Shown here in pieces: positions 24,379 to 24,965 of a DNA stretch of 37,412 bases. The number at the start of each line of letters is the position of its first letter. Within the stretch, counting starts at the first letter, position 1. This DNA comes from Bacillota bacterium. Its GTDB lineage: Bacteria; Bacillota; Sulfobacillia; JAJZYS01; JAJZLH01. The DNA lies in the NCBI GenBank assembly GCA_021803575.1, contig JAJZLH010000059.1:1-37412 (forward strand), written 5' to 3'. The notes below the pieces were generated by a model. It saw only the letters and a list, made by a program, of their open reading frames with translations, made no database searches and had not been told where the DNA came from. The translations under genes were made by a program, and so were the position numbers.

Positions 24379-24398
24379 TACAATGAGCCCTAAGGAGG
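24379..24398 (+). promoter_or_regulatory. Candidate -10 box and strong ribosome site of the glutaredoxin gene
   Basis: TACAAT (24379-24384) is a good -10 box; the -35 position (TCGTCG, 24356-24361) is weak. AAGGAGG (24392-24398) is a near-perfect ribosome-binding site. It ends five bases before the in-frame CTG at 24404, which argues for a start there rather than at the ATG overlapping the -10 box (24383). Confidence 0.35.
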
Positions 24399-24403
24399 TG
24401 GTT

Positions 24404-24652
24404 CTGATCACCCATCCAGCGGTCACCGTCTACCATTCCCCGGGCTGAGGTTCCTGCCATCAGGCCATGGAGTTCCTTGCGGCCAAAGGGGTCCCCTTCG
24501 TCAAGCGCGACGTGGTGAAGGACCCAGGGGCCATCGACGAACTCCTGAAGCTGACCGGAGGCGTCCGGGGGACGCCTGTGATTGTGATCGGAGACAAGGT
24601 CTTGCGCGGCTTCGACCGCGGCAAGGTGAGCGAACTGCTCGGTCTCAGCTAG
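24404..24652 (+). CDS. Glutaredoxin-like protein with in-frame TGA at the first catalytic Cys (candidate selenoprotein)
   Basis: Read through the TGA at 24446-24448, the frame gives 82 residues of a small glutaredoxin: VTVYHSPG-U-GSCHQAMEF, the helix AAKGVPFVKRDVVKDPGAI, GVRGTPVIVIGD (cis-Pro loop) and LRGFDRGKVSELLGLS. The TGA replaces exactly the nucleophilic Cys of CxxC, giving U15-G-S-C18. A SECIS-like hairpin begins 14 bases after it. Such proteins reduce disulfides or pass electrons to reductases. The start is uncertain: CTG at 24404 follows AAGGAGG by five bases, ATG at 24383 is also in frame, and the first ATG after the TGA (24467) would give a protein without an active site. If not Sec, it is a pseudogene or a sequencing error. 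One base separates it from the zinc-ribbon gene. Confidence 0.75.
24463..24484 (+). promoter_or_regulatory. SECIS-like hairpin downstream of the in-frame TGA
   Basis: GGCC (24463-24466) pairs with GGCC (24481-24484). Inside are an A-U pair, a U-U mismatch opposite a two-base bulge, and GG/CC closing the loop AGUU (24471-24474). The loop starts 22 nt after the TGA and has G in its first two positions, both within published limits for bacterial SECIS elements (16-37 nt spacing). The stem is short and was not folded by program. Confidence 0.5.
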
Positions 24653-24653
24653 C

Positions 24654-24965
24654 ATGGCGGACGAGGGCGAGATCCTGATCTGCCCGGACTGCGCCGAGCC
24701 CGTCCCGCTGCCGCCGGTCGCCCAGCCGGGCGAGCTGGTCGAGTGCCCGAACTGCGCCGGTCTCACCTTCCGGCTCCTGGAACGAGGCGGCACCCTCACC
24801 TGGATGCGGGTGCACCGGGTCAGTTGCCCGGGCTCTGACGCTGTCGTGGAAGTCCTGGACGGGACCCGAGAGGGCACTGTCTACCACTGCGGCGGCACAC
24901 CGTACATCCTCACCTATGCGTTCGGCTCCTATGCCCTGGAGCGCCTCGCCCCCCCGCCCCAGTGA
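24654..24965 (+). CDS. Small zinc-ribbon protein with LysW-like N-terminus
   Basis: 103 residues. ILICPDCAEPVPLPPVAQPG then ELVECPNCAGLTFRL form a CxxC...CxxC zinc ribbon very like LysW, the amino-group carrier protein. The LysW C-terminal Glu end is missing; instead a ~60-residue domain follows (TWMRVHRVSCPGSDAVVEVL...VYHCGGTPYILTYAFGSYALERL) with two further Cys. The ATG is one base after the glutaredoxin stop, so the two are co-expressed and the Cys-rich protein may be its redox partner or target (inference). I do not recognise the full-length family. Confidence 0.75.
   Translation: MADEGEILICPDCAEPVPLPPVAQPGELVECPNCAGLTFRLLERGGTLTWMRVHRVSCPGSDAVVEVLDGTREGTVYHCGGTPYILTYAFGSYALERLAPPPQ

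Follow-up and report, generated by a model that had tools for sequence, protein, structure and literature searches.

A UGSC glutaredoxin gene with an in-frame TGA codon and a linked zinc-ribbon gene in a genome of a Bacillota-type lineage

Glutaredoxins with selenocysteine (Sec) in a UxxC motif have been catalogued earlier (PMC1794560, PMC1088965, PMC13188914), and examples have been predicted in Geobacter, Moorella and Alkaliphilus, among others (PMC1794560, PMC13188914). The glutaredoxin cGrx1, which has been studied as its Cys form, is natively a selenoprotein and carries a U(or C)PXC motif (PMC7642778). The gene described here is located in a stretch of 37,412 nucleotides (the window, meaning the whole of the DNA that was analysed). 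It resembles the catalogued genes in combining the Pfam Glutaredoxin domain (PF00462) with a UxxC motif and in having Cys homologues in relatives, but it belongs to another lineage. As a kind, the Sec-glutaredoxin is already known; the zinc-ribbon gene linked to it is the less expected part. The features of the locus are as follows.

24394..24398, + strand: Shine-Dalgarno-like GGAGG, kept in both congeners (congener comparison)
24404..24652, + strand: predicted UxxC glutaredoxin gene of 82 codons with an internal UGA read as Sec and the stop codon TAG (translation, Pfam, congeners, homologues)
24404..24409, + strand: probable start, CTG 24404 or ATC 24407 (aligned with the GTG and ATG starts of the congeners)
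24446..24448, + strand: predicted Sec codon, TGA, in place of the nucleophilic Cys of CxxC (translation, codon-position check, homologue alignment)
24455..24457, + strand: resolving Cys (TGC) of the UGSC motif (codon-position check, alignment)
24463..24484, + strand: possible bSECIS stem-loop, GGCC-AU-GG-AGUU-CC-UUGC-GGCC, with its loop 22 nt after the UGA (no better than shuffled sequence)
24654..24965, + strand: LysW-like zinc-ribbon protein of 103 aa, 1 nt past the glutaredoxin stop (gene order in six other genomes)

The initial annotation had claimed that a single frame encodes a complete small glutaredoxin in which TGA stands at the nucleophilic Cys, with conserved sequence on both sides, including the cis-Pro loop. 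This description holds. With TGA as U, the frame at 24404-24652 gives the product LITHPAVTVYHSPGUGSCHQAMEFL...GGVRGTPVIVIGDKVLRGFDRGKVSELLGLS-stop and terminates in TAG (24650-24652). The Pfam domain spans residues 7-66, on both sides of the UGA, with 55.4 bits (cut-off 22.9), and the codon positions were checked. The resolving Cys18 and P58 of the cis-Pro loop are invariant among 20 aligned sequences, and in the congeners the codons on either side of the TGA evolve as coding sequence. An AlphaFold2 model (mean pLDDT 95) has the glutaredoxin topology; BC3987, NrdH proteins and the cGrx1 of Clostridium oremlandii are among the PDB entries that match it best. The window protein is a dithiol-type glutaredoxin with a UGSC motif and belongs to the Sec-Grx or Uxx-star-like group. 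The frame is very probably (roughly nine chances in ten) a functional selenoprotein gene, in which UGA would be decoded as Sec by the SelA, SelB, SelD and tRNA-Sec of the same genome.

Two congeneric MAGs (G054 and G055) carry the TGA at the identical codon of the same syntenic locus; both are collinear with the window for kilobases, with a DNA identity of about 74%. The extent of the frame given in the initial annotation stands, whereas its start was revised from the congener alignment. The congener genes start right after the conserved GGAGG, with GTG in one (L051) and ATG in the other (L052), followed by AYPAVTVYH. Since these starts align with ATC 24407 and the frame opens with CTG 24404, one or the other of these two non-canonical codons is the probable start in the window. 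In-frame ATG 24383 and GTG 24398 are also open in the window but receive no support from L051, where a TAA lies upstream.

A mechanical ORF finder reports only 24467-24652, an ATG-initiated frame of 61 aa in which the active site is lost, as had been foreseen for a standard gene call. The gene might be read from this ATG as a fragment, or the UGA might serve mainly as a selenium-dependent attenuator and not for making an enzyme, which the tight junction to the ribbon gene would permit. Such a fragment, however, would have neither the active site nor strand beta1. Three positions that are invariant in the alignment (Tyr10, column 15 with U or C, and Cys18) are encoded upstream of 24467, and the codons of this upstream part are conserved in the congeners. 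Both versions of this explanation are considered very unlikely.

The congeners also bear on the possibility that the TGA is a sequencing or assembly error for TGC or TGT, or that the gene is a decayed pseudogene. The window comes from a single MAG contig and the start codon is odd, both of which would suit such an explanation. A read error is nevertheless unlikely, since the codon is TGA in two independently assembled MAGs of the genus and in many homologues as well. Divergence after the TGA is mostly synonymous: G054 and G055 differ at 3, 5 and 23 sites at the first, second and third codon positions, respectively. This pattern indicates purifying selection downstream of the TGA. With the sel machinery also encoded, error or decay is hardly credible.

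A protein search of 154 genomes of the class returned 127 rows from 99 genomes; 67 of the rows contain an in-frame TGA and the other 60 do not. The counts are those reported by the search, and the TGA column itself was inspected in the 53 extracted loci. The column of the active site is TGA or Cys in all 53 of these homologues, which, like the TGA shared by the two congeners, goes beyond coincidence. By motif, these loci comprise 35 UxxC, 17 CxxC and one with U and no second Cys. The ten sequences closest to the window glutaredoxin (L021-L030) are all Sec forms, and one TGA homologue was found outside the class, in a Candidatus Tectomicrobia MAG (L053). On a tree of 52 rows, which has few columns and uncertain deep branches, a minimum of six changes between Sec and Cys is required (bootstrap range 5-7); hence the residue has switched repeatedly. 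Two loci depart from the general pattern. In the single locus with no second Cys (L080, genome G087), the resolving Cys is replaced (URGR) and other conserved residues are changed, so that it is possibly decaying or monothiol. A glutaredoxin of the clade in G046 (L037 1501-1680) aligns from residue 21 only; its active-site segment is apparently missing, as in a pseudogene or through an assembly fault, and this locus was set aside.

The genes selA, selB and selD and a tRNA-Sec gene, for which the initial annotation had proposed a search, are all present in the window's own genome (97.2% complete, 79 contigs). The tRNA-Sec gene lies at C1:8831-8922 (72.7 bits, cut-off 47), selB was found with its neighbours (351.5 bits, cut-off 242), and selA (477.9 bits) is directly followed by selD (347 bits). 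Together with the TGA of the congeners and the U/C column of the homologues, this machinery supports the selenoprotein reading. Within the class, 51 of the 53 genomes that carry a TGA-glutaredoxin have selA, compared with 22 of the 46 in which all forms are Cys forms (Fisher p=2.4e-8, a value that overstates independence as the genomes are related). One of the two selA-less genomes, G092, has two above-cut-off tRNA-Sec matches; in the other, the draft G088 (2.9 Mb, 97% complete), neither selA nor an above-cut-off tRNA-Sec match was found, a point against the selenoprotein reading. G088 contains two TGA-glutaredoxins and a TGA-containing ribbon gene all the same, and its sister G089 has selA.

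Two further genes of the window's genome contain an in-frame TGA. The SelD protein is itself a TGA-containing selenoprotein with the motif SGUGCK (L018, C21:8019-8942). A second TGA-glutaredoxin, with the motif UPWC, is encoded at L064 2001-2228 on C52 and is kept in the congener G055 (L065). Neither this second glutaredoxin nor the coupling to the zinc-ribbon gene had been picked up in the initial annotation.

Five of the six Pfam-supported window genes that were checked end in TGA, and in both congeners the glutaredoxin gene itself terminates in TGA, so that a single gene contains the codon in both of its readings. Because UGA is an ordinary stop in window genes and at the congener gene end, its decoding depends on context. 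A genome-wide reassignment of TGA to a sense codon such as Trp or Gly would also account for an in-frame TGA, but it can be dismissed as next to impossible, given that most Pfam-supported window genes terminate in TGA, that the in-frame TGAs fall at redox Cys/Sec positions (both glutaredoxins and SelD) and that the Sec machinery is complete.

A published bSECIS description (PMC13188914) was used as a scan model. Hairpins that conform to it occur in the window glutaredoxin, and 87 of 100 shuffles conform too; in single-sequence folds and in the model scan, the predicted element was indistinguishable from dinucleotide shuffles. RNAalifold over the clade gave no consensus structure behind the glutaredoxin UGA, and an Rfam scan found nothing in the window. 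The SECIS element of this gene is thus neither supported nor excluded; together with the non-canonical start codon, it counts among the weaker points of the selenoprotein reading.

The ribbon gene lies directly behind this glutaredoxin gene in seven genomes (the window genome, G054, G055, G066, G088, G089 and G114), which span four families (f1, f31, f35 and f37). In an eighth genome (G064), the ribbon gene is present and no glutaredoxin was seen just upstream. The two genes overlap in G088 and G089, where the ribbon start codon shares bases with the stop codon of the glutaredoxin (GTGA, ATGA). At the fourth Cys position of the ribbon, the window genome, G054, G055, G066 and G064 have Cys, and an in-frame TGA is found in G088, G089 and G114 (FECPLU, FECPVU and FECPRU, that is, CPxU). 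These TGA codons are located at L096 1702-1704 (minus strand), L098 1579-1581 and L100 907-909, and the frames run on to the conserved GSYALE or GSWALE end. A hairpin of 6 bp with a 5-nt loop (CGGGA or CGGUG, with G second) is found 20 nt behind each of the three TGAs, and one of its pair positions varies between A-U, G-U and G-C. As a common SECIS it is suggestive only, three sequences being too few and the individual folds unexceptional.

In a sample of 398 genomes of the phylum, the ribbon protein was found only in the three members of the window genus, apart from two weak partial matches. No plasmid matches to it were found, and a phage search gave only distant glutaredoxin-like matches. 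The nearest catalogued selenoprotein type is the UxxU form of the FmdB family. No description of a CPxU-type zinc-ribbon selenoprotein was found in the open-licence literature, which is weak evidence of absence, and the linkage of a glutaredoxin with a zinc ribbon was likewise not found described there. Judged from its sequence, the CPxU ribbon is apparently a second, undescribed candidate selenoprotein of the glutaredoxin-ribbon unit.

In the mechanism proposed as most likely, the Sec selenolate of the glutaredoxin would attack a target protein at a disulfide or selenenylsulfide bond, and C18 would resolve the mixed bond. Re-reduction might be carried out by thioredoxin reductase or by a low-molecular-weight thiol. 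A thioredoxin reductase with CATC is encoded in the genome, and a GCS2-type glutathione ligase (PF04107) was not found there in a search confined to the GCS2 type. The pairing of cGrx1 with MsrA(Sec) was not adopted for the window glutaredoxin, as the MsrA of this genome is a Cys form; for the same reason, the coupled ribbon protein, encoded 1 nt downstream, is preferred as the first candidate client. Translation of the ribbon gene may plausibly be coupled to UGA read-through because of the tight gene junction. Tentatively, and with the odds somewhat against it, the two proteins may form a selenium-dependent unit for redox chemistry or metal handling. The ribbon would then represent a new selenoprotein family (CPxU, with Sec and Cys interchangeable) and its (seleno)cysteine ribbon would be reduced or reloaded by the Sec-glutaredoxin, with translation coupled to read-through.

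With this locus, the selenoproteome of a little-studied Bacillota-type lineage gains a clear UxxC glutaredoxin that an ordinary gene call would cut short. A ribbon partner that switches between Cys and Sec is a concrete candidate client that can be tested for a Sec-glutaredoxin, and may itself be a new family of selenoproteins.

Among known proteins, cGrx1 of Clostridium (Alkaliphilus) oremlandii (PDB 7c10/7c12, Cys variants) shares with the window glutaredoxin the fold, Sec as the first residue of (U/C)xxC and the absence of N- or C-terminal extensions; the window model and 7c10 give a TMt of 0.93 with 41% identity over the fold alignment. Unlike cGrx1, which is of the UPxC type and pairs with MsrA(Sec), the window protein has the motif UGSC, two extra residues ahead of the cis-Pro loop (TGGVRGTP) and a Cys-form MsrA in its genome. 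The NCBIfam Uxx-star model NF041212 matches the window protein at 66.1 bits against a cut-off of 66, with the congeners and other clade members just below (56.7-64.5). The window protein does not reach the cut-offs set for Uxx-star families 1, 2 and 3 (NF041114, 44.2/72; NF041211, 56.6/100; NF047338, 51.4/97, respectively) and misses that of NrdH-redoxin (TIGR02194, 35.3 against 85.75).

The ribbon protein resembles the LysW/ArgW amino-group carrier in its N-terminal zinc ribbon (CPDC..ECPxCAG), and its best fold match is LysW (3vpb_E), over 49 columns. The LysW family NF041070 is its best family match, at 30.6, far below the cut-off of 75. The tail of LysW differs from GSYALE, the C-terminal end of the ribbon protein. 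Unlike LysW, the ribbon protein is about twice as long, with a second Cys-bearing half, and in three genomes it has a predicted Sec at the fourth ribbon Cys.
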